Below are positions 3,286-32,132 of a stretch of 36,268 nt of DNA, in pieces. The notes beneath the pieces are model-generated. The model searched no databases. It was given only the letters and a program-made list of their open reading frames with translations, and was not told the origin of the DNA. The stretch covers positions 1-36,268 of the forward strand of contig JAHFQA010000007.1 in the NCBI GenBank assembly GCA_023266475.1. The letters run 5' to 3'. Within the stretch, counting starts at the first letter, position 1, and every line of letters starts with the position of its first letter. Source of the stretch: Candidatus Woesearchaeota archaeon (GTDB lineage Archaea > Nanobdellota > Nanobdellia > Woesearchaeales > GW2011-AR4). Both the position numbers and the translations under genes were made by a program.

Positions 3286-3324
3286 TTCATAGTAATAGAA
3301 TTATTAATCAAAAAAGTGGTGAAG

Positions 3325-3891
3325 ATGCTGGAATTAAAAGAAAGTTTCAAAAAAGAGATTAAAAGCCTGCAGGACTACATAATTCTATTGGCAGTTGATG
3401 CGAAAAATTATCAAAAGACAAGCATTGACGTGCTTAAGTTTCTTGTCAGCGATCAGCACATTCCTGGAGTTTACGTGACACTAAACAAGCCATATGAGAT
3501 TATGCTCAGAAATCTTTTAAGCAGCAATATTGATCCAAGGTTGGTTATCTTTATTGATGCCACCTCTAGGCAAGAAGGTGCAAAAAAGGTTGAAAATTGC
3601 TTGTACATTGGAAACCCAGAAAAATTAAGCGACTTGTCAGTTGCAATGGACCAGGCAATTAAGGCGCTCCCAACAGAAAAAAAATTCCTCATTTTTGATT
3701 CATTAAATACGCTTGCTATTTTCAACAAGCCAGCTACAGTGGCCAGATTTATTTATTTTTTGACTTCTAAGATGAGGGAGTGGAAAATAATGGGCATTAT
3801 TTTAACGCTTGAGAAAGAAACAGACATGTCTTTGATGGATGAGCTGACTCAATTTGCTGACGCCCGCATAAACATTGGAGGTGAACAATAA
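3325..3891 (+). CDS. KaiC/ArlH-like protein lacking a recognisable Walker A motif
   Basis: Fold-like pattern: YIILLAVDAKNYQKTS where a P-loop is expected, PGVYVTLNKPYEIMLRNL, Walker B-like KFLIFDSLNTLAIF, FADARINIG; no GxxxxGK[ST]. Confidence 0.6.
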   Translation: MLELKESFKKEIKSLQDYIILLAVDAKNYQKTSIDVLKFLVSDQHIPGVYVTLNKPYEIMLRNLLSSNIDPRLVIFIDATSRQEGAKKVENCLYIGNPEKLSDLSVAMDQAIKALPTEKKFLIFDSLNTLAIFNKPATVARFIYFLTSKMREWKIMGIILTLEKETDMSLMDELTQFADARINIGGEQ

Positions 3892-4286
3892 TGGTCAGTA
3901 CGCTTATTCTAATTGGATTCTCAACCATAATTTTCGGCGTTGCTTCTTTGGTTTTGATTTCAAAAGCAAGGAACAGACTGAGCCAAGGCTCAATAAGAAG
4001 GTATATGGACAATTTTGCCGTATGCCTTGCTTTCATTGTAATTTTTTCAGTGTGGCAGACTATAAGGAGCCTTCTAGGCATTGACATAAATGTATCAGAA
4101 TTTATAACCTATCCAGAATATATATTCCTGATTTTCGCTTACATAGCGTTTATTATAGCATCTTTCAGGGTTACAAAAATAAGCACTGAATTCGGATTCA
4201 AGGAAGATGGAAGAAAAATAGCAGAGATTGTAAAAGAAAAAGCTACAAATTCTAAACCGCTAAAATTGCAGAAAAAAAAGAGTTAA
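3891..4286 (+). CDS. small multi-TM membrane protein
   Basis: 131 aa with hydrophobic helices; TAATG overlap with upstream stop. Confidence 0.6.
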   Translation: MVSTLILIGFSTIIFGVASLVLISKARNRLSQGSIRRYMDNFAVCLAFIVIFSVWQTIRSLLGIDINVSEFITYPEYIFLIFAYIAFIIASFRVTKISTEFGFKEDGRKIAEIVKEKATNSKPLKLQKKKS

Positions 4287-4287
4287 A

Positions 4288-4698
4288 ATGCAATTAAAAT
4301 CACAGGTCAGTATTGAGTATATGCTTATAATGGGATTTGTAACCGTGATGGCAATACCATTATTAATTCTTTATTTTGAATATTCCTCCAGCGCAAGAGA
4401 CTCTGTTGCAACAAGCCAAGCGCTTCAGATTGCCAGAAAAATAGTTGACTCAGCAGAATCAGTGTATTATCTAGGCCAGCCGTCCCAAACTACTTTAAAG
4501 CTTAATTTCCCTGATGGAATCTACTCAGCCAACCTTTCAAGCAAGGAAGTTGTCTTCAAGGTAAAAGTAGAGGCTGGAGTTACTGACGTGATTCAAATTT
4601 CCTCTGTCAATATTACAGGAAACTTGCCAACTTCACCAGGAATACATATCATAACAATTCAAGCTCAAAATGGCTTTGTTCAGATAACATCAAATTAA
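4288..4698 (+). CDS. pilin-like protein with archaeal class III signal peptide
   Basis: MQLKS|QVSIEYMLIMGFVTVMAIPLLILYF; Q+1, E+5 and hydrophobic helix. Confidence 0.8.
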   Translation: MQLKSQVSIEYMLIMGFVTVMAIPLLILYFEYSSSARDSVATSQALQIARKIVDSAESVYYLGQPSQTTLKLNFPDGIYSANLSSKEVVFKVKVEAGVTDVIQISSVNITGNLPTSPGIHIITIQAQNGFVQITSN

Positions 4699-4712
4699 AA
4701 AAGAGGTGGATT

Positions 4713-5096
4713 ATGGATTCTAAAGCACAAATAAGTGCTGAATTTATTATTTTTTTAGGGTTGGCATTCCTGATAGCGCTGTCCTTTGAGTTCATATCTT
4801 TAGATCAGCTGAATGATTTCAGGCTGCAAAAGGAAAATGAAGCAATAAAAGATGTAGCAATAAAAATTCAGAAAGAACTGCTTACAGCAGCGGTTGTTGA
4901 AGATGGCTATGTAAGAACCTTTATTATTCCTGATGCGCTCGACAACATAAACTATTCTTTAACTCTTCAAAATTCAACGCTTACAGTCCAATCAAAAAAT
5001 AGCATCTACATTGCAGCCATTCCAGCAGTTTTAGGCAATTTGAATAAAGGCTCAAATTTAATCAATAAGACCGGGGGTGTTGTCCATATCAACTAA
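4713..5096 (+). CDS. pilin-like protein with archaeal class III signal peptide
   Basis: MDSKA|QISAEFIIFLGLAFLIALSFEFI; SD GAGGTG upstream. Confidence 0.78.
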   Translation: MDSKAQISAEFIIFLGLAFLIALSFEFISLDQLNDFRLQKENEAIKDVAIKIQKELLTAAVVEDGYVRTFIIPDALDNINYSLTLQNSTLTVQSKNSIYIAAIPAVLGNLNKGSNLINKTGGVVHIN

Positions 5097-6183
5097 GGCC
5101 CAAGCCTTTTTCATGGACTTTGCAATAGCTTTGATGTTGTTCGTAATTACATTGGTCGTTTACTATAGCTATATTGATAACTTTAATAAAGAGGACAAAG
5201 GAGATTTGAATATTATCCAGTCTGATTCAAAGGCAATTTCATCTTCTCTGGTTTTAAGCGGCTACCCAAGCAATTGGGACAATTCAACAGTTGTAAGAAT
5301 AGGGATAGCTGACGACCAAACACTTAACTTAACAAAACTTAGGTATTTTAAGGAGCTTAACTATTCAAGAACGAAAAAATATTTTGGAACAACATTTGAT
5401 TATTTTGTTTTTTTTGTTAACAGCAAGGATGAAGTCCAAAACATTATGGGTATATGTGGAGTTGGAAGCCCTATGGTAAGCACTTCTTATAACGTAAAGA
5501 GTGCATATTATTACAATGACCCTGCTAATTCCTTGTTAAAGAATTATATGATTAATGCTTTTAATTCCGACATTTATTTTGACGATATCAACATGCTTTC
5601 AAGCAATTTAAGCAAATATAGCCTAGTTATGTTAGAAAATCCATTATTAAGTTCTATTGAATTCAACAATTACAAAAGTAGTTTGGAAAATTACTCATCT
5701 AATGGCGGACTATTGATAATAAGCGGGGAATTAGCAAGTTCTCCTCCAAACAATATGGTTGGAGCGAATTTCCAGAAAAAAACAGGCCAGTCACAAAGCC
5801 AAAGGACAGCAATCGTTAATGGCACAGACTCTTATCTGCATATTACAGCTGGCCAAATCCTTGTATTTAATGAATATAATTATGTTGAAAACGCATCAGC
5901 TTCTAACTTTAAAGCGCTGGCAACATTCAATCAGACTGACGACAAGGCAATCGCAAAATGGAAATATGGCAATGGAACAATTTATTTTTTCGGCGGCTTT
6001 GATGCCATTTATTCTAATGGGAATTTCACTAAACTTATTGAGGATGGCGCAGCAGGTCTTGTGGGAGGAACTTGTCAGCCAATTAATGTCTCAAGCACAG
6101 GGCTGAAAAAACTTGTGAGGACTGTGCGCTATCTAAGCTACAATTCAAGGCTGACCAAAATGATATTATACTTATGGCAGTAA
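5077..6183 (+). CDS. secreted/membrane-anchored pilus-locus protein with pilin-like N-terminus
   Basis: GTG start overlapping preceding stop; STKAQAFFMDFAIALMLFVITLVVYYSY then ~330 aa extracellular-type sequence rich in N-x-S/T. Confidence 0.65.
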   Translation: MLSISTKAQAFFMDFAIALMLFVITLVVYYSYIDNFNKEDKGDLNIIQSDSKAISSSLVLSGYPSNWDNSTVVRIGIADDQTLNLTKLRYFKELNYSRTKKYFGTTFDYFVFFVNSKDEVQNIMGICGVGSPMVSTSYNVKSAYYYNDPANSLLKNYMINAFNSDIYFDDINMLSSNLSKYSLVMLENPLLSSIEFNNYKSSLENYSSNGGLLIISGELASSPPNNMVGANFQKKTGQSQSQRTAIVNGTDSYLHITAGQILVFNEYNYVENASASNFKALATFNQTDDKAIAKWKYGNGTIYFFGGFDAIYSNGNFTKLIEDGAAGLVGGTCQPINVSSTGLKKLVRTVRYLSYNSRLTKMILYLWQ

Positions 6184-6230
6184 TAGATAGAAAAATTAAT
6201 TTAAGCAAAAAAAGTTTATGTATTTATAAC

Positions 6231-9200
6231 ATGAAAAAAGCTGTGTTTTTTACAATTGACAGTGTGCTAGCATCAGGAATTATAATAGTTGCTGTACTGC
6301 TTGTGGCAAATTTTTATTCTGTAGAGCAGCAAAAATCCAATCTAAATTACGCTTCTCAGGATATTGTAAGGGTATTTTCAACCATGGTAGTTGGGCAGGT
6401 AAATAATGACTACATCAATTCCCTTATTTCAAGCGGCCTTATTGCGAATGTAAACAATACTATAATCGAGCAAATTGGCGAGTTCTGGGCAGATGGAAAT
6501 GCAGATCTGGCAAAAAATTTTACAAGAAACCTGACAGAGGATATTATACCAGGCATTTTTGGTTTCAGCATTCTTGTTAATGGTGAGGAAATATATTCAA
6601 GGAACACTCCTTCAATTAGGGCATTGGTTTCCTCCAGAAAACTTGTGAGCGGAATTGCAAAGGCCAAGCCTACTCAAGGCTTTACAGGAAGAGTCTTATT
6701 AAATGGAATCAAAAGCAAGAAAACAAATGCTTATGTTTATTTTGGAGGGTATGAAGGTGATGGTAATTTAACAAAGAAACTAATCCTGCCGAATGATGTC
6801 ATTTCTATTAATAGCTCATATCTGGAAGTTGATGCCGCCTCAAATTTTAACCTGTATATTAACAATATCTTTTCCGGCACTTATGCAAAAGGTTCTGGTG
6901 GCGGTGGCAATATGCTCGCCGATAAGTGGAATATCAGCAATAATTATATTCAAAATTTTGTTTCAGGCGCCAATACTATAATTATAAACTTTACTGGCAA
7001 TGTAAGCAACAGCATTGCTGGTGGATTCTTAAGGGTAACTTACATTACATCTTCTTATAACGATACCCAAACTCCTGGATACACCAAAGAGTATCTTCCT
7101 GGAATTGATGGCGTCATAAATCTTTACTCCTCCTTTTATTCCCCTTTAGGATTGAATAATATGGGAATTTTTCTTCACTACTTAAGTCCCTACCAACTTT
7201 ACCTTACAATAGGAAATACAACAGTTTTTGAGAGCAATGGCTCAGCAGGAGAGCAGCAAATTTCAATTAATACTTCAAATTTGTCAGGCATGCTGGACTA
7301 TAGCGCATTAGCTGACAAGACAGTTCCACTAAGAATGGGATTAAAAGTCTTAACTTACGGAGGCCAAGGGACAAAAGCAGACGCTGTTTTGATAACAGAC
7401 AGGACAGGAAGCATGGACAGTTGTGACATCACTGTGAATTGTACATCCGGGCTTTGCGATTCTGATTCTGCTGGAGGCTGTCATGACAGAAGGGACAATG
7501 TTGCAATAAAATCTGACAAAAAATTCATAGATACAGTTTTGAGCTTATCAGGAAATAATGTTGGATTAGTTGGGTTTGGTCAAAGCCTTCAGCCTTACTG
7601 CGATTTTCATGATTTAAGTTCTGATAATGCATCATTAAAATATCAAGTTAGCAATTACTCAAATGCATTTTGCGGATACACCTGCATCTCTTGCGGAATT
7701 TTAGATGCAACAGAGCTTTTAACTGAACAACAAACATTATATGGGTTAAATCAAACGTCGTTTAAGAATACAACACAACGTACAGTTGGCGACCCCCCAA
7801 ATCCTGTTTCTGTAAAAGAAACTCTTCCTATTGCAGTGGACAAAACAAAATTCATAAAATCCAGACTGACAATTCTTGGCAGGAGTGTTAATGTTGATAA
7901 TGGTTATCTGCAATGTGTATATTTGAATAATAAGTATATTGGAAGAATGTGCGACAGCATATCTGATTGGCATACTTGCTCTTTCCCTTTAAAGCCAGAC
8001 TGGTTTAGTAATTCAAGTACCAATAATATCACAATAACAGGCGGCACCACAAGTGGATGCAATGCTACTTCAGGCACAAATGATAACTGGGATTTTAAGG
8101 ATGTGAAAATAACAACTTGGCAGACCAAAAATTCTGCAGTGAGTTTGACGTATAATTTTTCAAATGCCACCAACACCACAGTAGGAGACTCTCCAAACCC
8201 AAACATAGCTTCAGTCAACCTAAGCATCATAAGCAATGTCACTAAAATTAAATCTGCCACAATAGAGTTTGAAGCCATTGATGTTGATCCAAGTTATTTT
8301 GATTGTGTTTATATAAATGGAAATTATGTCGGCAGGGTAGATTATCAAAAATGGAACGGCACAAACCTATGGCAGAAGGTGCTTTTTGATGTGCCTGCAG
8401 TGTGGATAAGTAATGGCAAGAATCAAATAAATATAACAGGCGGCACTACTTCCGGATGCAAGAGAACTTCTGGAACAAATGACCAGTGGAAATTTAGAAA
8501 CGTAAATTTGAGCATTATTACTTCTGACGAAGGAAGTTTATACGACAGATTTAAATCAATGCTCGTTATGAGCGACGGCGAGGCAAACACAAAAATTGGA
8601 GATGGAGCAGGTCTTGATTCTGCTGGAGCAAGAAATGAGACTGTTGCAAAGGCTTGTGAAGCCCATGACTTATATGGAATTAATATTTTTGCTGTGTTAT
8701 TTGGTGATACCACTAACAGCAATGCTGTCAGGACATTAAACCAAACGGCTTGCTGTGACGATTGCTCGCACTTTTATACAAGTAATGATTCAGCTAGTTT
8801 GCTTGATATTTACACCGAGATTGCCCAGTCAATTATTAATATCGGATTTTCGTCACAATCAATAAATATTACCGGAGGCAATATTCAGAAAACAACGCTT
8901 TTTCCCGACTCTTTCATTGAGTTAAATTATTCTATTTTACAGCCTTCTTTTAATAAAATACCATTGTCTTTTGAAACAGACCGGTTTAATAATAATATAT
9001 CGACTGGAACACTGTACATATATCCAAATACCTCGGTTTTAGATGCAAAAGTAACTTCTTATTCAGGCAACAAATGGACAGACAATTTGGTAGTCAATGG
9101 GAATAATGTATACAGCCTGAATGTCTACAATTCGAACTATCTAATATTAGGTGATCCATTTATCGTTAATTTGCCAACTAGCCTAATAAACGAAGGAAGC

Positions 9201-9614
9201 AACACAATCACTATAAGCACAGGGCTTAACTCAACAAGCCCCACAGGTGGCTCAAATGACAGCAGGGCTTTATACACTTTATTGGTAAATGGATATGCTG
9301 ACTACAGCGCTGTTGTTGCAAAATCAGAAGGCTGCAGTTGGACTGTGTCTTTTGAAGATGAATCATCTTCATCAATAAAAGTCCCTCCTGATTACAGCGG
9401 AGCAGACATATGCAGCTATGCAGCCAAGACATTTGACGCAAATGACGCCCTGGACAATGCAGCTTATCAGTTGTTTAGAAACCTCGATATAGACAAAGAC
9501 GGCAAACTGGATGTGAACATTGAAGAAAAAAATCTTAATATCAATGCATTTAGCATATCCAAAGTTCCTTCTCTTTGGGGCCCTGCAATAATTGAAATAA
9601 GGGTATGGGGTTAA
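6231..9614 (+). CDS. large VWA-domain surface adhesin with pilin-like N-terminal helix
   Basis: MKKAVFFTIDSVLASGIIIVAVLLVANFY; MIDAS-like ADAVLITDRTGSM and MLVMSDGEANTKIGD; EF-hand-like DIDKDGKLDVNIEE near C-terminus. ORF opens at 6174; ATG at 6231 preferred. Confidence 0.8.
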   Translation: MKKAVFFTIDSVLASGIIIVAVLLVANFYSVEQQKSNLNYASQDIVRVFSTMVVGQVNNDYINSLISSGLIANVNNTIIEQIGEFWADGNADLAKNFTRNLTEDIIPGIFGFSILVNGEEIYSRNTPSIRALVSSRKLVSGIAKAKPTQGFTGRVLLNGIKSKKTNAYVYFGGYEGDGNLTKKLILPNDVISINSSYLEVDAASNFNLYINNIFSGTYAKGSGGGGNMLADKWNISNNYIQNFVSGANTIIINFTGNVSNSIAGGFLRVTYITSSYNDTQTPGYTKEYLPGIDGVINLYSSFYSPLGLNNMGIFLHYLSPYQLYLTIGNTTVFESNGSAGEQQISINTSNLSGMLDYSALADKTVPLRMGLKVLTYGGQGTKADAVLITDRTGSMDSCDITVNCTSGLCDSDSAGGCHDRRDNVAIKSDKKFIDTVLSLSGNNVGLVGFGQSLQPYCDFHDLSSDNASLKYQVSNYSNAFCGYTCISCGILDATELLTEQQTLYGLNQTSFKNTTQRTVGDPPNPVSVKETLPIAVDKTKFIKSRLTILGRSVNVDNGYLQCVYLNNKYIGRMCDSISDWHTCSFPLKPDWFSNSSTNNITITGGTTSGCNATSGTNDNWDFKDVKITTWQTKNSAVSLTYNFSNATNTTVGDSPNPNIASVNLSIISNVTKIKSATIEFEAIDVDPSYFDCVYINGNYVGRVDYQKWNGTNLWQKVLFDVPAVWISNGKNQINITGGTTSGCKRTSGTNDQWKFRNVNLSIITSDEGSLYDRFKSMLVMSDGEANTKIGDGAGLDSAGARNETVAKACEAHDLYGINIFAVLFGDTTNSNAVRTLNQTACCDDCSHFYTSNDSASLLDIYTEIAQSIINIGFSSQSINITGGNIQKTTLFPDSFIELNYSILQPSFNKIPLSFETDRFNNNISTGTLYIYPNTSVLDAKVTSYSGNKWTDNLVVNGNNVYSLNVYNSNYLILGDPFIVNLPTSLINEGSNTITISTGLNSTSPTGGSNDSRALYTLLVNGYADYSAVVAKSEGCSWTVSFEDESSSSIKVPPDYSGADICSYAAKTFDANDALDNAAYQLFRNLDIDKDGKLDVNIEEKNLNINAFSISKVPSLWGPAIIEIRVWG
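7781..8525 (+). repeat. duplicated ~115-aa domain inserted inside the VWA domain
   Basis: TVGDPPNP...ITGGTTSGCNATSGTNDNWDFKDVKITT and TVGDSPNP...ITGGTTSGCKRTSGTNDQWKFRNVNLSII. Confidence 0.8.
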
Positions 9615-9615
9615 T

Positions 9616-10542
9616 ATGCCAAAAAAAGCAATTTTTTATACAACAGCTGCAATTGCACTAACAATAGTGATAATAGTTACATTCAGCGCATACACCACAT
9701 ATAAGCTAAGCGACAAAATGGACGTAATACAGACCCGAATTGATACTGTTAACTTTTTCATTAAAGATGTTGAAAAAGACCTTAATAAAGGAGCTTATAT
9801 AGCAGGATTCAGAACCCTCTTAAGTTTCAATCAATACATAACATCCAATGGAACATACATAGACGATGTAAACCTTAGGTTTAAGGAAGCTTTTCTAAAT
9901 GGGACAATCAAGCAGATGCCATTAAGCTTAATGCAAGGTTCTACCTTCACTGATTGGACAAGCAGAATTTCTGCAGAAGCCAGCAAGGTAGACATTAAAT
10001 TCAACCTTTCAGTAAATGACGTCAAGCTAAATCAAAGTGATCCATGGACAGTAGATATTGGATTAAATTTGAGCTTAGACATAGGGGATGTTAGAAATAC
10101 AAGCTATTGGATAAGAGAAAGGTACTTGATTACCCGAATAAGCATAGCTGGTTTTGAAGACCCGCTTTACGTAATTAACACCAATGGCAGAATCACAAAT
10201 CCAATAATAATATCAAACATAACTGATTTTGTTGTTAATGGAGACGTCAAAAACCTTTTAGTCCACACAAATAATTCTTATTATATCAGCCACAATGACT
10301 CGCCGAGCTTTCTGATGAGAATACAGGGAAATCTAACAAACTCAACATTCGGAATAGAGAGCCTTGTAAACCTGAACAAGCTCCAGCAGCAAGGCTTGTC
10401 AATAAAGGACAGGAGCATTGTTGACTACATATATTTCGGGACTGGAAATACCGTGAATTACAGAATTAACAACACACCAGAATGGTTTAAGATTGATGAG
10501 GGCCATTTGAATATTTATCAGGTTAGAAACATAACTATATAA
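9616..10542 (+). CDS. single-TM exported protein of pilus locus
   Basis: MPKKAIFYTTAAIALTIVIIVTFSAYTTY then ~275 aa exported-type sequence; start 1 nt after previous stop. Confidence 0.6.
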   Translation: MPKKAIFYTTAAIALTIVIIVTFSAYTTYKLSDKMDVIQTRIDTVNFFIKDVEKDLNKGAYIAGFRTLLSFNQYITSNGTYIDDVNLRFKEAFLNGTIKQMPLSLMQGSTFTDWTSRISAEASKVDIKFNLSVNDVKLNQSDPWTVDIGLNLSLDIGDVRNTSYWIRERYLITRISIAGFEDPLYVINTNGRITNPIIISNITDFVVNGDVKNLLVHTNNSYYISHNDSPSFLMRIQGNLTNSTFGIESLVNLNKLQQQGLSIKDRSIVDYIYFGTGNTVNYRINNTPEWFKIDEGHLNIYQVRNITI

Positions 10543-10593
10543 AAATTAAAAAACATAACATTTTTAAATAAAGAATAACAAAAAATAATCAAG

Positions 10594-11739
10594 ATGGAAT
10601 CACAAAGCAGTTTTATAGAAACTGGTGTAGACAAATTAGTTAATCTTATTAAAGAAAGAGGAAGAATTGCATTGAGCGATGCCGCATCAGAGCTTGGAGT
10701 AAGCACAACAGTAATTCAAGAGTGGGTGGATTTTCTCGAGGATGAAGGGATTATAAGCGTTGAGTACAAGCTCACAAAGCCTTATCTTATAGATAGGAAA
10801 TTAACTAAAAAAGAAGTTGAGTCAAAGGCAAAAGAATTTAGTAGCAAGAAAGAAGTATTTATCAGAAAAGCAGAAGTAAGTTTGAGTTTTCTTGAAAAGC
10901 AGGCAGACGACTTGAAAAAAGTCAAGGAGGAGTTTGACAAGCTTAAGAACGAGCTTGGTTTTGAGCTTGATACAGTAAAGGACGATTTGCAGGAACTTGA
11001 AAAATACCAGCAGCTTAAGGAGGAATTGCAAAAGCAGGTTGAAGAGCAAAAGAACGAGGCTAAATCAAGGGTAGAGGAGCTTACAAGGGAAATTATAAGG
11101 GAAGAGAAAAAATACGAGGAATTATTAGACAACCTAAAAAAAGAGCAGGATGAATTAATAAGGGAAAAATCTGAAGCTCAGTCGATCGAGGAGAGCGAAA
11201 AAATACTGAATAAAAAACTGGCAGACCTAAAAGATTTGATAAGCCAAATTGAAAAAAAGGTTTCGGACGAAGATTCATCAATTAAAAATTCAGAATCGCA
11301 CATTACAAGGCTAGGCCAGCTTGCAGAAGAAATAAGGCAGCGGGCTGACGAGGAAAAGTCAATTTTAAGGCCTTTGGTAGAGAAAAGCAAAGAGCAAGGT
11401 AAAAAAGTTATGGAATTGCAGGACAAAATCGTAAAAAAAATAGGACAAAAGCAAAAAGATGTTTCAAATGTGAAAGACATAACAAAAAAAGTCAAGGATT
11501 TTTTTGACAAGAAATTGGCAGTTGTTAATTTGGTTGATAAAGTAAATAAAGACAGGGACGAATTGGAAAAAAGCCTTACCGAGCTGATAAGAAAGGCAAA
11601 ATCTTTCCAGTTAACAGCTAAAACTGGTGATGTTGGCAAAGATATGCTGGAGCTTGAGAAAAAATTCGGCGAAGTTAACAAAAAGAAAGGCATATTTGAG
11701 GAGGAGCTAAAGAAATTCACTTCATTTTTCAAAAGCTGA
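10594..11739 (+). CDS. N-terminal winged-HTH + long coiled-coil protein
   Basis: DKLVNLIKERGRIALSDAASELGVSTTVIQEWVDFLEDEGIISVEY then ~250 aa of K/E-rich heptad sequence; own TATA (TTTTTAAATAAAG ~10561). Confidence 0.75.
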   Translation: MESQSSFIETGVDKLVNLIKERGRIALSDAASELGVSTTVIQEWVDFLEDEGIISVEYKLTKPYLIDRKLTKKEVESKAKEFSSKKEVFIRKAEVSLSFLEKQADDLKKVKEEFDKLKNELGFELDTVKDDLQELEKYQQLKEELQKQVEEQKNEAKSRVEELTREIIREEKKYEELLDNLKKEQDELIREKSEAQSIEESEKILNKKLADLKDLISQIEKKVSDEDSSIKNSESHITRLGQLAEEIRQRADEEKSILRPLVEKSKEQGKKVMELQDKIVKKIGQKQKDVSNVKDITKKVKDFFDKKLAVVNLVDKVNKDRDELEKSLTELIRKAKSFQLTAKTGDVGKDMLELEKKFGEVNKKKGIFEEELKKFTSFFKS

Positions 11740-11819
11740 TGAAAATAAAAATAAAGAATTTGCACAATGATTAGTTTTTCGTCGAAATATATTTTAATTT
11801 AAAAAAAGAGGTGTGTATT

Positions 11820-13466
11820 TTGTTAGAGAGATTTAGCCATAAAAAGTCTAAGGTAGTTGCATCTCTGCATCCCAGCAAAAGCAGCCAAGAAAGTGATGTT
11901 AATGTTTTGGGTTTGTCATCACTATCTCAAAGCCAAGAGATAAAGCAAAAAAAATTCGGTTTAAGTTCTGTTTCTGTCAATAAAGAAGTTATCAGCGTTG
12001 TTGCAACATATAATTTCACATCTGATGGTATTCCGATCACAATTATAATATATAATAAAAAAGGTGAATTCGTACCCATTTACGATGTCTCAATATCGAG
12101 CATCAGCAAAAATACTGAAATAATTCTTGAAAAAATAAGAGAGGAATTGACAGCACAAGTCAGCTTAGGGATGGTTGACATCCTTACTACAAAGGACACT
12201 GGAATAATTGAGAAGAGCTTTATAGATACAATAACAACTTTAATTAACAAGCATTTTCCTGATGCCGACGAACGGACAACAAATTTTCTTAAATCATACC
12301 TTATACAGAGAAGCCTTGGGCTCGGAAGCATAGAGATTCTAATGGACGATGTGAACCTTGAGGAAATAGCAATAAATGATTCTGAAGATCCTGTTTGGGT
12401 TTATCATGTAAAATTTGGCTGGCTGAAAACAAACATAATGATGCAGAGCGAAGACCAGACAAGGCACTATGCAACAATGATAGGAAGAAGGGTTGGAAGG
12501 CAGCTTACAATTCTTGAGCCATTAATGGATGCTAATCTAAAAGGAGGAGATAGGGTAAATGCAACACTTGAGCCTATATCCATAGCCGGCAATACGATTA
12601 CATTAAGAAAATTTGCAGCAAAGCCTTGGACAATAACAGATTTCATAAGCGCAAGCTCAATCTCTACAGAAGCTGCTTCATTGATTTGGCTAGGGGTGCA
12701 ATACGAATTATCAACTTTGATATCCGGAGGAACAGCAACTGGAAAAACCTCAATGCTGAATGTTGTTGCAAACTTTTTTCCGCCAAATCAGAGAATTATA
12801 AGCATAGAGGACACAAGGGAAATCCAGCTGCCAAAATTCCTGCATTGGGTGCCAATGATTACAAGGCTGCCAAACCCAGAAGGCAAAGGTGAAGTTTCAA
12901 TGCTTGACCTGCTTGTCAATTCATTAAGAATGAGGCCTGACAGAATAATTGTTGGCGAAATAAGAAGAAAAAGAGAAGCTGAAGTTTTGTTCGAGGCAAT
13001 TCATACTGGCCATTCAGTTTATGCAACAGTGCACGCGAACGATGCTGCTGAAACCATAACAAGGCTCACTAATCCGCCCATTGAGATTCCAAAATCAATG
13101 CTGCCAGCCATATCAATGATTGTCGTGCAGTACAGGAATAGAAGAACAGGTGTAAGAAAAACTTTCCAAATAGCAGAAATTTTGCCTGACTCAGATCCAA
13201 ACGTGCTTATACAGCTTGACATAAGAAAAGGTGTCTTGAAAAAAGTTGCAAATTCAAAATCACTTATGGCAACAATTGAGCTGTTCACTGGGTTGACAAG
13301 AAGCGAAATAAACAGGTCTACAAAGGAAAAAGAAATAATTTTGAAATGGATGGCCAAGAAAAATATAAACACTGTAGACAGTGTTGGAAGGGTAATGGCT
13401 GAATACTACACAAACAAAGCCAACTTAATGAGCACAGTCAAAAAAAATAAGCTACTGGGTGATTAA
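11820..13466 (+). CDS. type II/IV secretion system (archaeal pilus/archaellum, ArlI/TadA-like) ATPase
   Basis: Walker A SGGTATGKT, SIEDTREIQLP, MRPDRIIVGEIRRKREAEVLFEAIHTGHSVYATVHAN. SD AGAGGTG places the start at TTG 11820; ORF opens at 11811. Confidence 0.95.
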   Translation: MLERFSHKKSKVVASLHPSKSSQESDVNVLGLSSLSQSQEIKQKKFGLSSVSVNKEVISVVATYNFTSDGIPITIIIYNKKGEFVPIYDVSISSISKNTEIILEKIREELTAQVSLGMVDILTTKDTGIIEKSFIDTITTLINKHFPDADERTTNFLKSYLIQRSLGLGSIEILMDDVNLEEIAINDSEDPVWVYHVKFGWLKTNIMMQSEDQTRHYATMIGRRVGRQLTILEPLMDANLKGGDRVNATLEPISIAGNTITLRKFAAKPWTITDFISASSISTEAASLIWLGVQYELSTLISGGTATGKTSMLNVVANFFPPNQRIISIEDTREIQLPKFLHWVPMITRLPNPEGKGEVSMLDLLVNSLRMRPDRIIVGEIRRKREAEVLFEAIHTGHSVYATVHANDAAETITRLTNPPIEIPKSMLPAISMIVVQYRNRRTGVRKTFQIAEILPDSDPNVLIQLDIRKGVLKKVANSKSLMATIELFTGLTRSEINRSTKEKEIILKWMAKKNINTVDSVGRVMAEYYTNKANLMSTVKKNKLLGD

Positions 13467-14295
13467 GATTAAAGGACGTTTTTTAAGCTCATTATTCCAG
13501 CGAATTGCGAAAGCTTCGCCCATGCTTAAGATTAAGCTTAAACAAGCCGGTATTGACGACAAGCCCGAAGACTTCATTAAAAAAACTTTTCTCTCTGCAT
13601 TTTATATGACAACCGGCATAGTCATTTTCCTGTTTTTTATTCTTGCAAAATTAAACCTGCTTAAGGGTATTTTGTTCCTGATTGTTCCATTCATATTCAT
13701 CGTAATGTTCTTTTACATGATAAGGCTTCCTGATCTTAGAATATCAAGACGAGAGAAAGAAATAGGCAAGGAGATTGTTTTTGCAGGCAGATTTATTATT
13801 ATAGAGATTGAATCTGGGGTTCCATTGTACAATGCAATGGTCAATGTTTCAAAAAATTTTAATATTGTTGGTAGGTATTTTAAGGAAATAACTGACAAAA
13901 TAGACTTAGGCACAAGCATGGAAGATGCATTAAATGAAGCGGCAGAACTGATTCCATCAGATGACTTAAGGAAGATACTTTGGCAAATAATTAATTCAAT
14001 GAGAACAGGATCAAATGTAGCCAGGTCGCTTTATTCTGTGGTTGACCAGATAACCAAGGAGCAGATAACCGAGGTATACAAGTACGGCAAAAAGCTTAAT
14101 CCTCTTGCAATGTTTTATATGATAATAGCCGTTATTCTTCCGTCTTTAGGCATGACAATGATGATAATACTATCTTCTTTCATAAAATTCCAGTTGAGCC
14201 TGACAATTCTGCTTGCTATAGCCGGCTTTCTTGGATTTTTGCAGTTTATGTTCATTTCATTAGTGAAATTTTCTCGACCAGCAATTGAATTTTAA
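13459..14295 (+). CDS. type II secretion F domain membrane protein (TadC/ArlJ-like)
   Basis: ESGVPLYNAMVNVSKNFNIVGRYFKEITDKIDLGTSMEDALNEAAELIPSDDLRKILWQIINSMRTGSNVARSL plus TM helices. Confidence 0.88.
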   Translation: MIKIKGRFLSSLFQRIAKASPMLKIKLKQAGIDDKPEDFIKKTFLSAFYMTTGIVIFLFFILAKLNLLKGILFLIVPFIFIVMFFYMIRLPDLRISRREKEIGKEIVFAGRFIIIEIESGVPLYNAMVNVSKNFNIVGRYFKEITDKIDLGTSMEDALNEAAELIPSDDLRKILWQIINSMRTGSNVARSLYSVVDQITKEQITEVYKYGKKLNPLAMFYMIIAVILPSLGMTMMIILSSFIKFQLSLTILLAIAGFLGFLQFMFISLVKFSRPAIEF

Positions 14296-14297
14296 CC

Positions 14298-15581
14298 ATG
14301 CTCAGCATTAAAGGCGAATTCAATAAAAAAACTGAACCAACAAATCCAAATAAAATAATCGATAAACAAAAAAATAGATTTGATTTCTTTAAGAATATTT
14401 TTAAGAAAAAAGTGCATATGGATGCATCTGGAAAAATAGGCATTCCTACTCCTGCTACGCAGATAAAAGTTAGATTTTTTGATAAAATTAAAGGGCTTTT
14501 TAAAAAAAAGGAAAGTTCCGCTCAGCCGGAAAAAAGAATAGAGTTCTTTAAAAAAAAGCTCAAAAAGGCGCAGCAAAAAGATATAAAGGCGCAGGCCAGA
14601 CGGCAAAGAATTAAAAACTACCTAGACAGGGCTGGTATTGACATTAACCCTCAAAGAATATCCAAGATCTTCTTTAACCTTTCTGTGCTAATAAATCTTG
14701 CAATCTCGGCTTATTTAATTTATTATTTCTCGGTCACATACGGCATTACTTGGGGCACTGTAGTCGCTTCGATGATTGTGCTCTGGGTGCTTATTTTTGT
14801 GCTTTTGATATTCTTGCTTTGGATTATGTTTTATATTGCTGTTGACTTGAAGATATTCAAAAGAAAGCTTGACATAGAGGATGTTCTGCCGGATTTTCTT
14901 CAATTAACTGCTTCAAATATAAATGCTGGCATGACAATAGACAGGGCTTTATGGTTTGCAGTAAGGCCAAGGTTTGGAGTCTTGGCAAAAGAAATTGAAT
15001 CAATAGCAAAGGAAACGATGAGCGGCGCTGATTTAAAGGAGGCATTGGAAAGATTTGCAGCAAGATACGATTCAATTATTTTGAAAAGATCCATAAGCAT
15101 GCTCAATGAAGGAATAGCTGCAGGCGGACAAATCGGAGAATTGCTTAACAGAATATCCATTGACATACAGGAGCAAAAAGCTATGCTTAGAGAGATGGCT
15201 GCAAACGTCACAACTTATGTCATATTTATATCATTCGCCACAATTGTTGCTGCCCCGTTTTTGTTCTCTTTGTCGGGTGTCTTAATTGATGTAGTGCAAA
15301 ACTTAGGCAGTTCGCTTGGCTCAACCACAAATGCAGCTGCAAGCGCAGGAATACCATTAACATTTTCAGGCTCTGGCGTTACACCGTCAGACTTTAAGAT
15401 TTTTGCGGTATCCTCTTTGGCGATAACATCTTTTTTTTCCGCAATGATGATTGCAATCATAAAAAAGGGAAGTGTAAAATCAGGCGTAAAATACATTCCA
15501 ATCTTCATTTTCATATCTATTACACTCTATTTTATTGGTCAGACCTTGGCAGGAAAACTTATTGGGGAATTCTTTAAGTGA
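14298..15581 (+). CDS. second type II secretion F domain membrane protein (TadC/ArlJ-like)
   Basis: ASNINAGMTIDRALWFAVRPRFGVLAKEIESIAKETMSGADLKEALERFAARYDSIILKRSISMLNEGIAAGGQIGELL plus TM helices. Confidence 0.88.
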   Translation: MLSIKGEFNKKTEPTNPNKIIDKQKNRFDFFKNIFKKKVHMDASGKIGIPTPATQIKVRFFDKIKGLFKKKESSAQPEKRIEFFKKKLKKAQQKDIKAQARRQRIKNYLDRAGIDINPQRISKIFFNLSVLINLAISAYLIYYFSVTYGITWGTVVASMIVLWVLIFVLLIFLLWIMFYIAVDLKIFKRKLDIEDVLPDFLQLTASNINAGMTIDRALWFAVRPRFGVLAKEIESIAKETMSGADLKEALERFAARYDSIILKRSISMLNEGIAAGGQIGELLNRISIDIQEQKAMLREMAANVTTYVIFISFATIVAAPFLFSLSGVLIDVVQNLGSSLGSTTNAAASAGIPLTFSGSGVTPSDFKIFAVSSLAITSFFSAMMIAIIKKGSVKSGVKYIPIFIFISITLYFIGQTLAGKLIGEFFK

Positions 15582-15683
15582 ATTCTAATAAATATAAGTA
15601 GTAATTAAAATTAGACGATTGCACTTATTTCACAGTATTCCATATTTGAAATGATTAAATAGTATCCATTCCGAGAAAAATCT

Positions 15684-15700
15684 TGGAAAGATTTAAATAT
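15684..15700 (+). promoter_or_regulatory. putative BRE/TATA promoter of tandem pilin genes
   Basis: TGGAAAGATTTAAATAT in the pre-pilin intergenic region. Confidence 0.45.
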
Positions 15701-15768
15701 TAGTTATTCAATTAATATTTAAAGTTAACATTTAGATAAAAAATGATTTTAAAAATGAGGTGAAGTTA

Positions 15769-16218
15769 ATGAATAGTCTTTCTCGATTCAAAAAATCTCA
15801 AGCGGCTATGGAATTCTTGATGACTTATGGCTGGGCAATACTTGTTGTTCTTGCTGCCATTGCAGCTCTGGCGTACTTTGGTGTTTTAAGCCCTGAGAAA
15901 TTTTTGCCAGAGAAGTGTATTTTACAGCCTGGAATTGCATGTGTAAGCCACAAAGTAGAGCCTGCCAAAGTAACTCTTGTGATATCTAATGGCTTGGGAA
16001 GAACTATAATCGTAAACAGCATTGATGTAGGTGGATGCAGCGGAACGTTTACAGAGTCAATGATAAGTGGAGTGGACCATACTTTCGTTATAGGGGGCTC
16101 CTGCAGCAATGGCGTTGCAAAAGAAAAGTTTAAAGCTGATATCACCATGGGATATACGGAAAAGGACACAAATCTTACCAAGACTGTATATGGTAATTTA
16201 AATACAAAAATTGAATAA
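15769..16218 (+). CDS. major-type pilin, class III signal peptide
   Basis: FKKS|QAAMEFLMTYGWAILVVLAAIAALAYFGVLSPEKFLPEKC; SD GAGGTG upstream of ATG 15769. Confidence 0.88.
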   Translation: MNSLSRFKKSQAAMEFLMTYGWAILVVLAAIAALAYFGVLSPEKFLPEKCILQPGIACVSHKVEPAKVTLVISNGLGRTIIVNSIDVGGCSGTFTESMISGVDHTFVIGGSCSNGVAKEKFKADITMGYTEKDTNLTKTVYGNLNTKIE

Positions 16219-16255
16219 TCATAGTAAAAATTATTTAAAAAATGAGGTGAAGTTA

Positions 16256-16768
16256 ATGATATCAAAGGAAAATCTAAAGAAACTTTTCGTGAATAAAAAA
16301 TCACAGGCAGCCTTGGAATTTATAATGACCTATGGCTGGGCAATACTTGTTGTTTTAGTAGCAGTTGGAGCCTTGGCTTATTTTGGAGTCTTAAGCCCAG
16401 ACAAGTTCCTGCCGAGCAAATGCACTTTACAGTCAGGATTGGCATGCATAGACCATAAAGTACAAGCAGCTCCTGCAGGTACGGGAAATGCCGGATTGGT
16501 CACAGTTGTACTCCAAAACTCGCTTGGATTTGATTTAAGCTCAGTTGTTGTTGGTGCTGGAGATTGCGGAAATTCAGGCTCAGGCGTTTCAATGGCAAAT
16601 GGGGCACAGGCAACCTTTTTAGTTAACTGTGTTGGTGGAGGCATTGCTGAACAAACGATAGCTGCTGCTACTTCGAAATATAATAAGCAGTTAAATGTCA
16701 GCTATACAATAGTTGATACTAGCCTGTCACATAAGAATTTGGGACAACTGACAGCTAGGGTTGAATAA
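16256..16768 (+). CDS. major-type pilin, paralog of preceding gene
   Basis: NKKS|QAALEFIMTYGWAILVVLVAVGALAYFGVLSPDKFLPSKC; same leader AAAAATGAGGTGAAGTTAATGA. Confidence 0.88.
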   Translation: MISKENLKKLFVNKKSQAALEFIMTYGWAILVVLVAVGALAYFGVLSPDKFLPSKCTLQSGLACIDHKVQAAPAGTGNAGLVTVVLQNSLGFDLSSVVVGAGDCGNSGSGVSMANGAQATFLVNCVGGGIAEQTIAAATSKYNKQLNVSYTIVDTSLSHKNLGQLTARVE

Positions 16769-17852: not shown

Positions 17853-20800
17853 TTAACCACCGTAAAAAGTTCTAATGGCATCTATTATATCAAATGCTGT
17901 TTTAGTAGATGTTCCAGCGTAAAAGTCTCTTATCATGTCTATTATTGCAAATGCACTTGTTCCTGCCACTTTATTGCCAATTGCGAAATAGCTCAATCCT
18001 GGTGTTGTTGCTTCATAATATGCATTATTGCCATCGCTGCTTACCATTTTAGTCTCTAATTGATTCCATTTATCTCCACTGTATCTCCACAACGCCACAT
18101 TGGAATCAGCAACACCATTAGTTGAAAGCCATGACTTTGGAACTTTGAATTTAATTGCAATCTTTGAAGCATCTGCATCAGCTAAATTGCTCTTTGTTAT
18201 CTGCAAGTATTGATAAACTTTGGCTGAGGCTGAGGCTGACAATGGATTTGATTTTAGGCTGTCAACATTTAGTGAAGGGCTTGTAACAGTATTCTTGACG
18301 TCTATGGCTACATTAGTAACTGCGATGTCAGCGTTATTTATAGTTAAAGTGCCTGTTGAGCCTGCTGCCAAAGTATCCCATACTCTTCCTGCTGTTGCCT
18401 GAACATTTGCTGTTGTCGTAGTTGTTGTTGTTGCACTGCCACCACTGCTGCTACTTGAGGAAGTTGTAGTTGTGCTACTGGCTGCAGCGCTTGTTGCGAA
18501 GCTGAATACTGTTACGTTCATGTAGCAGTTTTCATTGAAGTCACAAACGGTTACATTAAAGTAATATGTCGTACCTGCTGTTAAACCTGTAAGGCTAACC
18601 ACCTGGGTAATATTAAAATCAGTCTCTGAAGCTGATGAAGTCAATGATGTGTTTGAAGTTCCGTAGCTGATTGTAGCATTAACTGACTCATTTGAGCCTG
18701 TAATTGTAACAGTTGCTGTTGTAGTGCTTACAGAGGATGTAACTTCCCCATTTTTTGGCGCTGTTTTATCAGAAACATTCAGCAGCAACACATATAAGTT
18801 TGCATTTCCATTAGCATCTGTAACTGTAAAGTTGATTGAGTAAGGATCGTTAGATGCAAGATTCTTAAACCTTTCAGTCTGTCCAATGCATACATTTCCA
18901 TTTTTGGTCATTGTTCTATTTACTCCTGACGAAGTAGAGCCATTTGTTATATATACGCATGATAGTGCATCTGAGGAAACTGTAATATTTGGAACAAACA
19001 TGCCAACTGTTTGATTATTTGTTCCAGGTGTGGTTGAATTTGCCGTTGGAATACTTGTATCATTAGTTACTAATACTATACTAAAGTGAGGGACAAAAAC
19101 AATAGTCCTTCCGTTTGAAGTGTAGTTCCAGCATGGAGTCGTGGTTGTTCTGGTAAATGCACTTGTGCACGCGCTTATATTTGTCCTTGTTGTCAAAGTA
19201 TTGATATCAGGCACCCACCAGAATTCCGGACCTGAACGAGTACCATTAGAATTGTTTAGTAAGAAAGTCACTGATCCATAATATGAATTATTATTGCCGA
19301 TAAACTCATTGATTGAAGTATTGAAGTACACTGATTTCAATATTGTGTTAGTCCAGTTATTATTAATTTGAGTTTTAAAAGTAACTGTTTTATCAGTTTC
19401 ATTGATATACGGAGTGAAGTTTATCTTATTCCAATTGGCAGCTGTACCATTAATGTCACTTAGGGTTATATTTATACTGTTATTCATATTATACAATATT
19501 TCAAATGTATTTCCATCAGTTTCATTTGTGCCATTGAATTGAACATAGCCATCGTTTGACCTGAAAACTTTGATGCTAACATTTGTCAAATTAGTCCCAA
19601 GCGCAATAGCCATGTATTGATTGATGCTGCTGTTGACATTTCCGAAATTAACAATTCCAGTTTGAGTAAAGGCTATTAAGCTACTATTTCTTGCATTGCC
19701 CAGGGTGTCATTTACAAATATTTTTACAGTATGTGTTCCAGGGGTGAAATTAACTGTCCTATTAATAAAAGTAATATTCTCTCCAGGATTATCTGATATC
19801 CATGAAAGGTTTGTTGATGCAAATCTTAAATCAAGAAGGGTAGGGCTTCCATCCAAGAAATAGCCAATGGAATCTATGATGCTTTCGCTGTCAAATACAG
19901 AAACATTAAGCACAGTAAAACCAGTAAACTGTGAGCCATCAGCTGGTGTATGTACCACAATAGATGGTGCGACATTATCAACTGTAAATGGAATCACTGT
20001 CGTGTTTGAATTACCTGCTGTATCTGTAACAGTAACAGTTAAGGTCCGGTTAGCCGAGGCTGTGTTGCAGTTGGATTCATTAAATGGGAATACTGTTGTT
20101 GAATTTGGAAATACAACTGTTCTGCTTGTATTACAGCTTGAAACATAAGTAAGATTGGCAACATTTATTGTTCCATCCACGCCGCCAAAAGTAAGCCCCA
20201 TTGAGGAGGTAATATTAGTGTAATTGATTGTTGCAATTCCTGTAATGGTGGAACTTGAAGTTGTAATGTTTACGAATATCAAGCCAGGCACGCTTCCACT
20301 CTGGATTGTAAATGTATTGAGCAGTTGCGCTGTATTATTGAAAGTATCTCTTGCAGTCACAACTATTACGTGTGTACCATTGGCTAATGGGCAGCCTAAT
20401 GTCGTTGCTATTGAAAATGAGCCATTTCTGTTTGCATTTGGATCAGAAGCAGTACCTGAAGATGGTACTCCAGCAAATTGCTTGAACTTGACACATAGAC
20501 CTGTAGATTCATTGGCAGCATCAGTTGTATCTATACTAATATTGATATGGGACAAGCCACTTCCTTCAATTATCGACCAGCTTGCCAAGAATGTTGTGGC
20601 AGATAAGTTTGAACCATTTATCGCAGCTGTTCCATTAATTGTTATCTCTGGCACTGTTGAATCATTTATCCTAATGGTCATATTTCTTGAATTTAGGTTT
20701 CTATTGCCTAATGTATCGTTAAGAACAAATCTAAATGATATATTCTGTCCTTCAAACATATTGTGTCCAGGAGGCACTGTAAATGTCATATTACTCCAGC

Positions 20801-27761: not shown

Positions 27762-30700
27762 ATGGATCCAAAGGAAGATGATGATATCTCTATCGATTTT
27801 ACCAGAATAAAAGGTTTTTTCAAAAGCGAAAAGAAAGAAGAGAAAAGGCTAGAGGAGCACGCAAAAGAGCCTGCATCCGATAGTAAAGAAGAAGATCTAA
27901 ATATAGACTTCAGCAAATTCAAGAAATTCTTCAAAAGTGATGGAAAAGATGAGAAAGAGCACAAGGAAAAGCAATTTCAAGCAGCTGAAGAGAAAAAATC
28001 AGATGATGAATTGTCCTTTGATTTTGGAAAGTTAAAAAAATTTTTCAAATCCAAAGAGAAAGAAACATCATCAGATCAAGAAATATCTGTCAATTTTGAC
28101 AGCATAGTCCGTTTTCTCAAGAAATATGGTGTTGTCTTAATAGTGCTGATACCAATTATACTTTCAATCTATGTAAGAATGCAAGCAGGGCTTTTGCCCT
28201 TTGCCGACAGTTGGGCAAGTGCTTCAGTAATGAACGAAATGAGAGCTCAAATTGCCTCTGGCGTTGAAAAATCATATCCAAATTTGCCTGAGTCTAACAA
28301 AAACGAAATTGTCAACAGGGAATTTCAAAAGGCAGTCGATCAAAACAGGGCACAGATTGACCAGCGTATATTCGCAACGTCAGCATACATTAAGTCATTT
28401 TTTCAAGACGAACAAGGAAAGAATTACATGCCTGACATCGATCCATACTATTGGTTTAGGTATGCAAAAAATATCGTGGAACATGGGCATCCAGGCGACA
28501 CTCTTAAAGATGGATTGCCTTATGACAATCATCAGCTTGCTCCTGTTGGAAGGTATGTTTTTGCTGATAAATTCCATTCTTATTTCTTGGCATATTTTTA
28601 CAAGTTCCTCCATTTTTTTGCCCCTGATTTGAGCCTAATGCGTTCATTGTTTTATTATCCTGTTTTTGTTTCAGCATTATGTGTATTGCTTGTGTTCTTG
28701 ATTGCAAGAAAGATTGCGGGTAATTTTGGCGGTCTTTTAGCCGGACTCATGATGTCTATAAATTTTGCATTTTTGGGAAGGACATTGTTCGGGCATGCTG
28801 ACAGCGATGCATGGGTTGTGTTCTTTCCGTTGCTGATTACTTGGCTATTTGTTACAACAATTGACTCAAAGAGTTTAATAAAAATCGCGATTATAACAAC
28901 AATTGCAGGATTTTTTACAGGCGTTTATCCAACCGCATGGAGCGGATGGTGGTATATTTTTGACTTTTTGCTTGCAACTATAGGACTGACGTTTGTATAT
29001 CTTGTATTAATAAATCTTAAAGACATTAAAAGAAATATATTTTCAATTTTTTCTAATTTGTACATAAGAAACATCATTGCAGTGGGCTTTGTCTATTTCA
29101 TCTCAACTGCAATCTTTGTGACCTTATTTTCAGGATGGGATACTTTTAGTGGTAGTTTTCTAGGGCCATTAAGTTTTCCGTCTATTAAAGCTCCTACAAG
29201 CGCATCATTTTGGCCAAATGTCCTGACAACAGTTGCTGAGCTTAACGAAGGCTCCATGAACCAGATTATTAATTCTGTAGGCGGCATTTACCTATTCTTC
29301 ATTTCATTGGTTGGTATTGTTTTAGCCGTGTCGAGAACAGAAGGCGCAAAAAAATTTGACTATGTTTATATCTTAGGGTCTATTCTTTTATTTGCAGCCT
29401 TATATTTGCCACTTAAGATTATTCCACAGCTATATCAAAGTTTTAAAATAAACACTTTGCTTTTTTTAATGATTATTCCGATTTTTATTGGTATGGGTAT
29501 TTCTATAGTTAAAAAGGACCACACTCACGATTACCGGCTGTCTATACTGCTTTCTCTTTGGTTTGTTTCAACTATTTTTGCAAGCATTAAAGGCATCAGG
29601 TTTACATTATTGCTGGCTCCTGCATTCAGCGTGGCATTTGGAGTTGCACTTGGAAAAATCTACAATTTCCTTTTAAAATTCATGACAAAAGAGTTAAAGA
29701 TACATAAGTTAGTTGGAAGCAGCGTTTTGATCATTTTGTTGTTATTGATTTATGTTAATCCAATAAAAGGTGCTATTTCATCTGCGAGTTCTGACATACC
29801 CATAGTTAATGACGCGTGGTACGCTGCTATGGCTGCGATAAAGCAGAATTCAAGTGAAAATGCAATCATAACTTCATGGTGGGACTTTGGGCATCATTTT
29901 AAGGTTTTGGCTGATCGTCCTGTAACATTTGATGGGACAACGCAAACTAGGTGGCCGGCTCATTGGGTGGGTAAGTTGACTATGATCAATAATGAATTAC
30001 AAGCTATAGGTATTTTAAGAATGTTAGACTGCGGCGGTGATAACGCCAATTCTGAATTAATTAAGATAAATAATGACACACACCTATCACTAAAAATAAT
30101 AAATGAAATCGTTCTGCTTAAAAAAGGGCAAGCACAAAAAAAACTTCAAGATTATGGATTAAGCTCAAAGCAAAGTGATGTTGTTCTTACATACACTCAT
30201 TGCAATCCTCCTGAAGCATTCTACATTGCGTCGAATGACATGATAGGCAAGAGCGGAGTCTGGGCTCATTTTGGAAGCTGGAGCTTTGAGAGGGCAGATA
30301 TATGGCAAAATACAAGAGGTATGGGACAAGAAGACGCTGTCAATTACATGATTAAAAAATTTAACTATACAAAAGAACAGGCTGATAATTATTACTCTGA
30401 AATACAGGACATCATCAATGAGCCTGACGCAAATGTAAGGGATTCGAGAGCAAATGCATGGATTGCTCCATGGCCAGGCTACGGGGGAACAATGAACTGC
30501 AATAAGGAAGGCAATGGAACATACCTATGCCAGCCGATAAGTGTTGGAAGAGACAATAGTGGCAGGGATGTAATTGCTAGATTTCAAATTAACCTTAGCA
30601 ACTATGATGTTATTGCGTTAATGCAGCAAAATACGATAAGGCCAAGTATGGCTGCGTTCACAACTGATGACGGGCTATTTTTTAAAAATTTCAATGGAAC

Positions 30701-31733: not shown

Positions 31734-31740
31734 GTGAAAG

Positions 31741-32076
31741 ATGGTGCTCGGAATTCAAATTGCTGGTTTTTTGTTCGGGCTATTCATGATTTATTACTCT
31801 TTCCTAAACTACAAAAGAAAAGAGTTCACAGCCAAGGAGTTTACATTTTGGATTGTTCTTTGGGTCATTTTTATAATAGTAACTTTGTTTCCTTTTGTCT
31901 TGGATCCAATTGTAAAAACATTCGGCTTTTTCAGGACTCTTGACTTGCTTATTATAAGTGGGTTCTTATTTTTGATTATTTCGATGTTTTATATTTATAC
32001 AGTAATAAGGAAATCCCAAAATCAGGTTGAGACAATTGTAAGGGAGCTAGCAATAAAGAAGGGAAAAAGGAAGTAG
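31741..32076 (+). CDS. DUF2304-family membrane protein
   Basis: Three-TM 111 aa protein immediately after the GT2 gene; FTFWIVLWVIFIIVTLFPFVLDPIVKTFGF. Confidence 0.75.
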   Translation: MVLGIQIAGFLFGLFMIYYSFLNYKRKEFTAKEFTFWIVLWVIFIIVTLFPFVLDPIVKTFGFFRTLDLLIISGFLFLIISMFYIYTVIRKSQNQVETIVRELAIKKGKRK

Positions 32077-32132
32077 TTTTTCTGTTAAAATACTATGTAT
32101 ATATTTAAATAGCACGTAATATCACTTCAAAC

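Follow-up and report, generated by a model that had tools for sequence, protein, structure and literature searches.

What kind of filament is encoded by a run of thirteen genes in a Candidatus Woesearchaeota archaeon (assembly GCA_023266475.1), and what is the giant VWA-domain protein that this run carries? We analysed a window of 36,268 nucleotides, that is, the whole of positions 1 to 36,268 of contig JAHFQA010000007.1, in which thirteen co-directional open reading frames (ORFs) occupy positions 3316-16768 of the + strand, with overlaps or short gaps between them (the widest, 178 bp, lies 5' of 15760). A sequence-only reading of this DNA had proposed an atypical, archaellum-like pilus locus of a DPANN organism, with the giant protein as a candidate adhesin. 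All of the ORFs that it listed were found, and the VWA domain that it saw behind a pilin-like N-terminus was borne out; what goes beyond that reading is that the VWA domain belongs to an exchangeable insert in a minor pilin, here called V, which stands between two further pilin-like proteins, X5 and X7.

The architecture of V

When 30 homologues occupying this gene slot are aligned, two parts are kept in 30/30: an N-terminal module (N-module) of ~145 residues, which has [KR]-[GA]-x-[FY][FY]-x-x-D close to its start, and a last strand of ~17 residues, '...VPSLWGPAIIEIRVW'. The region between them differs from locus to locus. It holds a VWA head in 20 loci, a non-VWA head of ~440-490 residues in others (one kind in L017, L056 and L067, another in L041 and L054), and almost nothing in an empty form of 173-182 amino acids (aa), found in L028, L030, L031 and a paralogous locus on contig C21 of the same genome (L005). 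The possibility that short V is an assembly artefact or a broken frame was ruled out, as both ends are kept and X7 adjoins, in separate contigs. Alignment and modelling thus indicate that V consists of a pilin-like module of ~160 residues into which a head is inserted, immediately ahead of the last beta-strand. The AlphaFold2 model of the empty form (predicted local distance difference test, pLDDT, 84; predicted template modelling score, pTM, 0.69) has a long N-terminal helix, a small helical region and four strands, of which the fourth is the C-terminal strand (162-169), and a low-confidence loop at 147-156 is the insertion site. Full-length V was modelled with pLDDT 79 and pTM 0.51.

The VWA assignment comes from a profile of the same alignment, which matched solved VWA structures at 7e-13 to 3e-9, the matches including 4rck, 4cn8 and the fimbrial tip protein Mfa5 of Porphyromonas gingivalis; one relative clears the Pfam VWA_2 cut-off, and the window's V itself is weak in Pfam. 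Among the VWA forms, the D-x-[ST] and DG motifs of the metal ion-dependent adhesion site (MIDAS) occur in 20/20, the probable threonine as TCxxCG in 15/20, and an EF-hand-like loop of the DxDxDG type 3' of the VWA in 19/20. The head of the window's V runs from a beta-rich region through a VWA split by nested beta-domains to the EF-hand-like loop.

The split is best seen in the spacing between the MIDAS threonine and the last aspartate, which is ~28 residues in compact forms, ~300 in the window's V and >600 in L064. In the window's group this length stems partly from copies of a ~90-residue beta-domain, placed by a hidden Markov model (HMM) at residues 527-619 and 658-752 of V, with a third copy at 922-1011; every VWA form also has one copy of this domain after the VWA. 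Since copies lie between the MIDAS threonine and aspartate, the arrangement is nested, with beta-domains inside a VWA inside a pilin-like module. Elsewhere (L045, L049, L053, L059) the inserts at this point are mostly not the ~90-aa repeat, and the inner insertion site of the VWA seems to have taken unrelated domains too.

Head exchange and the minor-pilin set

Close relatives can carry different heads on nearly the same module. The ATPases of L021 (VWA) and L017 (non-VWA) are sisters (support 98/92). Identity between the two V proteins is 79% over the N-module and 100% over the last strand, but the middle shows only a partial, low resemblance. The ATPases of L028 (empty) and L056 (non-VWA) also form a sister pair. 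Mapped on the ATPase tree, the three states of the insert require 7 changes or more, where 2 would be the minimum. These comparisons indicate that relatives exchange the head of V and retain the pilin module and the assembly machine. The slot is also widespread: the V N-module was found in 154 of the 377 genomes sampled in a survey of the phylum. Lengths among the 150 listed frames were bimodal, for the most part below 230 or above 600 aa, with 40 below 250 aa, 98 of 600 aa or more and 12 between, some of which are perhaps cut by contig ends, and genomes of the genus with two listed matches usually had one long and one short copy.

X5 repeats the pattern of V, with forms of ~350-440 aa that carry an insert, forms of 157-201 aa that do not, and a last strand common to both; it has the K[AS]Q site of true pilins. 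X7 is near-constant in length (308-347 aa in most loci) and has no acidic residue at the position of the aspartate in V and X5. In each of the 30 loci that have V, the three genes lie together on one strand, with small genes parting V from X7 in 6 and an altered order in 2. X5, V and X7 differ in their N-terminal acidic residues and in this resemble the minor-pilin sets that initiate bacterial pilus tips, and X5-V-X7 most likely forms a pilus tip complex with interchangeable binding heads.

The small genes between V and X7 in six of the 30 loci (L017, L021, L043, L026, L020, L065) are toxin-antitoxin-like and resemble a nucleotidyltransferase-like gene with a helical partner, RelE-like genes and AbrB-like genes. 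Their presence there suggests that a hot spot of insertion or recombination adjoins the exchangeable head.

The filament and its alternatives

The sequence-only reading called the locus atypical, a description that fails because its gene order recurs across Woesearchaeota/Nanobdellota and a second copy is present in the genome. In a synteny comparison of 55 named loci, most of the fuller contigs share the order p3-p4-X5-V-X7-H-ATPase-TadC-TadC-pilin(-pilin), where p3 and p4 are small pilins and H a helix-turn-helix (HTH) and coiled-coil protein; the KaiC-like and small membrane genes precede p3 in the nearest relatives. Such recurrence, in dozens of independent contigs, far exceeds what chance would give. 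The second, divergent type IV pilus locus (C21, 769-10165) has the same parts, with p3 and p4 placed last, short V and X5, and the HTH/coiled-coil gene in two pieces; a large exported protein upstream of it is cut by the contig end. The closest named relatives are Woesearchaeota metagenome-assembled genomes (MAGs), with nearest ATPases ~76-83% identical. Further afield, near a pilus ATPase of a Micrarchaeota contig (L066, 16794-21452, - strand), we saw by eye a 716-aa V-like protein ending in VGVYAWR, a 175-aa X5-like protein and, in addition, an exported LamG-like protein; Micrarchaeota may share the tip set.

That the filament is an archaeal type IV one is supported by its components and relatives. 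The term archaellum-like did not survive. Archaellin (PF01917) gave 0 matches in the genome and in 11 relatives of the genus, with control genomes positive, in keeping with the earlier remark that no archaellin set is visible. The ATPase, in a ranking whose named archaeal references were solved structures only, came closest to Archaeoglobus fulgidus GspE2 (2oap, 236 bits), ahead of FlaI (176) and CpaF (155). A prepilin peptidase, absent from the window as had been noted, is encoded elsewhere in the genome, on contig C77 (Peptidase_A24, 4.5e-16). Because of these three results we read the locus as an archaeal type IV pilus and not an archaellum, and its parts were not found together inside any characterised archaellum operon type. 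The genome is a MAG of 1.32 Mb in 80 contigs; as it is ~88% complete, absences from it are provisional. Of the features of Epd/Tad pili, two platform genes are present, whereas the tandem pilins (152 and 170-185 aa) differ from the very short Epd/Tad major pilins (~70 aa); no MinD/TadZ-like ATPase was found among the 13 genes, and no genome-wide search was made for one.

In the working model that we propose, the tandem PilA-like pilins (15760, 16211) would probably form the shaft, and X5, V and X7, to judge from gene order, N-termini and bacterial parallels, would most likely form the complex that initiates it. The VWA head would most likely bind a ligand, protein or glycan, carried by another cell or by a surface, so that the pilus could hold the cell to that ligand or pull it closer, with the KaiC-like pseudo-ATPase and H probably modulating assembly. 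On sequence comparison and analogy we regard a type IV pilus of this design, with a modular V among the tip minor pilins and an exchangeable VWA head that binds a cell or surface ligand, as reasonably probable. Several results weigh against it: Foldseek returned no significant solved pilin-fold match for the empty-form model and diffuse beta-rich matches only for the full V model, the processing site of V (K[GA]-x-FF) departs from the K[AS]Q-x-S-x-E of major pilins, and the tip position of V rests on analogy. As Foldseek gave no significant solved relative, the pilin label for V rests on operon context, the N-terminus and the comparison of empty and filled forms. A PNGase F-like Foldseek match (target TM ~0.37) was not used as evidence.

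With a pilin fold unconfirmed by Foldseek and an N-terminal helix that could be a plain anchor, V might instead be a membrane-anchored VWA surface protein that is carried by the pilus operon and never enters the filament. This has been proposed for bacterial TadG, cited as a possible membrane anchor by Makarova et al. (PMC4858521). An anchor, however, would have no need of the conserved C-terminal strand or of a 173-182-aa empty form that keeps exactly both ends, and V stands in fixed order between two other pilin-like genes; we hold this account unlikely. Alternatively, the VWA head of V could act mainly as a force or surface sensor or an assembly primer and not as a specific adhesin, as proposed for PilY1 and CpaL, and the conserved cysteines beside the MIDAS would suit such a role. 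Heads that go missing or are swapped for unrelated non-VWA domains in close relatives fit recognition better than conserved signalling, which makes the sensor less likely still.

The remaining alternatives concern the filament as a whole. An ATPase nearest archaeal GspE2, together with ATPase and platform families common to type II secretion, is what a secretion or DNA-uptake pseudopilus would show, but two genes of the major-pilin type and very large exposed heads are not, and no secreted-effector or competence genes were noted in the window; we give this reading little credence. An archaellum variant for swimming is largely refuted and has the slightest chance of all: the ATPase does score well against the NCBIfam FlaI model (below cut-off) and a KaiC-like gene is present, but that KaiC-like protein has no P-loop, the platform proteins are two in number, and the archaellin and ATPase results given above speak against it.

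The features are collected in Table 1. The secretion ATPase and the two platform proteins of the sequence-only reading were recovered by Pfam, which on the 13 genes otherwise gave a KaiC/DUF7504 domain in gene 1, a weak HTH where gene 8 begins and, in V, a VWA that was also weak. Class III signal-peptide motifs can be seen (KSQVSIEY, KAQISAEF, KSQAAMEF), though PF04021 stayed below threshold; K[ASG]Q-x-[SA]-x-E occurs in 36 of 46 homologues of p3/p4, and K[ASG]Q-..-E[FY] in 58 of 69 homologues of the major pilins. In NCBIfam, V, X5, X7 and the small pilins tested all remained without a name. The P-loop that had been reported missing from the KaiC-like protein is missing in 12/12 aligned family members. 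Directly upstream of that gene lies a divergently transcribed KaiC-family ATPase with an intact P-loop (2241-2981, - strand), and the two are possibly a partner pair. Promoter and terminator scans stayed at chance level, with bacterial patterns applied to an archaeal host.

Table 1. Features of the pilus locus and of V, with positions in the window.
Feature	Position	Strand	Basis
KaiC/ArlH-like protein, degenerate P-loop, intact hhhhDS (Walker B-like) motif; DUF7504	3316..3891	+	Pfam DUF7504 1e-8, KaiC 2e-6
Small membrane protein M	3891..4286	+	ORF; homologues beside KaiC-like gene in nearest relatives
Class III pilin p3 (KSQVSIEY)	4288..4698	+	Motif; homologues in 25 loci
Class III pilin p4 (KAQISAEF)	4713..5096	+	Motif; homologues in 25 loci
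Minor pilin X5 (KAQ motif), ~200-aa insert before last strand	5077..6183	+	Alignment of long and short forms
V, 1127-aa modular minor pilin with VWA head	6231..9614	+	Start ambiguous (alternative 6174)
V, pilin-like N-module: long helix, helices, beta1-3	6231..6656	+	Kept in 30/30 homologues; AlphaFold2 of empty form
V, MIDAS motif 1, DRTGSM, residues 390-395	7398..7415	+	D-x-[ST]-[GS]-S-M in 20/20 VWA forms
V, probable MIDAS threonine with CxxC, TCISCG, residues 484-489	7680..7697	+	TCxxCG in 15/20 VWA forms
V, nested beta-domains between MIDAS T and D, ~260 aa, two copies of ~90-aa domain	7743..8522	+	HMM repeats
V, MIDAS motif 3, MSDGE, residues 780-784	8568..8582	+	[MV][ST]DG in 20/20 VWA forms
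V, EF-hand-like loop DIDKDGKL, residues 1086-1093	9486..9509	+	19/20 VWA forms, 3/6 non-VWA heads
V, C-terminal strand, residues 1111-1127, ...PSLWGPAIIEIRVWG, completes pilin-like module	9561..9611	+	Kept in all insert states
Minor pilin-like X7	9616..10542	+	34 loci; beside V or parted by small inserted genes
HTH + coiled-coil protein H	10594..11739	+	53 loci; weak Pfam HTH; two genes in C21 paralogue
PilB/GspE2-type secretion ATPase	11811..13466	+	T2SSE 1.6e-34; nearest solved structure 2oap
TadC/ArlJ-like platform protein 1	13459..14295	+	T2SSF 9e-14
TadC/ArlJ-like platform protein 2	14298..15581	+	T2SSF 1.4e-13; weak ArlJ and UpsF
Probable major pilin 1 (KSQAAMEFLMTYGWAILVVL)	15760..16218	+	Sequence; tandem pilins in relatives
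Probable major pilin 2	16211..16768	+	Sequence; tandem pilins in relatives

Enrichment in N-glycosylation sequons marks V and X7 (z ~4) but not the cytosolic components. Because of this enrichment and of an STT3-like gene with a WWDFG motif nearby (27762-31058), the heads are probably glycosylated. The STT3-like oligosaccharyltransferase gene is followed by glycosyltransferase-like genes (27762-33272, + strand), a probable glycosylation cluster near the pilus locus. Separately, a 1694-aa exported repeat protein adjoins the pilus operon and faces it (17853-22937, - strand); it has 122 N-glycosylation sequons, against 49 expected after shuffling (z 13).

Known relatives and biological meaning

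Several elements of this system have precedents. A 2016 census by Makarova, Koonin and Albers (PMC4858521) already lists archaeal type IV pili that have two TadC genes, neighbours of the KaiC family and VWA-associated regulators, and its adhesive pili share with our locus the ATPase, TadC-like platforms, class III pilins, PilA-like major pilins, KaiC-family neighbours and several minor pilins per operon; an X5-V-X7 operon type with swappable heads is not described in its available portions. In DPANN archaea, a 2019 study of a Nanohaloarchaeum (PMC6642349), again as far as its available portions go, mentions FlaI/FlaJ/pilin-type genes with adhesion domains, Woesearchaeota included, and suggests a role in cell interaction, but does so in passing, with no description of an operon, a modular insert or head exchange. 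A full-text literature search returned no paper joining Woesearchaeota with pilin and adhesin.

Modular VWA pilins are already known in bacteria. PilB of Streptococcus sanguinis, a shown adhesin and a minor pilin modelled at the pilus tip (PMC8179133), likewise combines a small pilin module with a bulky VWA that has a MIDAS. Its VWA, however, is C-terminal, after the pilin module, whereas the head of V is inserted before the last strand, contains nested beta-domains and is naturally absent or replaced; the survey in that study covered bacterial pilins (IPR012902). Another is CpaL of the Caulobacter Tad pilus (PMC12607857), a minor pilin predicted at the tip with two others, whose VWA lies in two sections parted by a beta-rich region. 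CpaL is bacterial and, comparing by description, its beta-rich region falls between MIDAS motif 1 and the threonine, while that of V falls between the threonine and the last aspartate. Because Tad pili are considered to be descendants of an archaeal pilus that had two platform genes (PMC6668835), a shared ancestry of V and the Tad tip proteins is possible. PilY1/PilC1 also place a VWA on a pilus-tip protein, and V shares an EF-hand-like loop with them; PilY1, unlike V, is not a pilin, and its C-terminal beta-propeller has no Pfam match in V or the relatives tested. A further parallel is offered by Nanosynbacter lyticus TM7x (PMC12206443), which is bacterial but also ultrasmall, with two distinct type IV pili of which one contributes to host binding. 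What is new here is the defined operon, the internal and not C-terminal insertion of the head, its natural loss or replacement, and the nested VWA.

For DPANN archaea it is an open question how a partner is recognised and held, and few of the proteins that make up their attachment structures have been identified (e.g., PMC11420986). The V slot provides a concrete and widespread attachment candidate, present in 154/377 genomes, with natural empty, VWA and non-VWA versions. The locus also points to pilins for DPANN pilus ATPases of the kind that the 2016 census left without cognate pilins in some nanoarchaea (PMC4858521), and it extends the idea of modular pilins from bacteria to archaea, with the head attached in a different, nested way. 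More tentatively, X5 and V could be slots of a recognition head-exchange system in which DPANN archaea recombine the head of a tip pilin, keep the pilus and so change partner; the V head might then serve as a genomic marker of partner range in uncultured Woesearchaeota. As the head can be expressed alone and screened, its ligands could be sought without culturing the archaeon.

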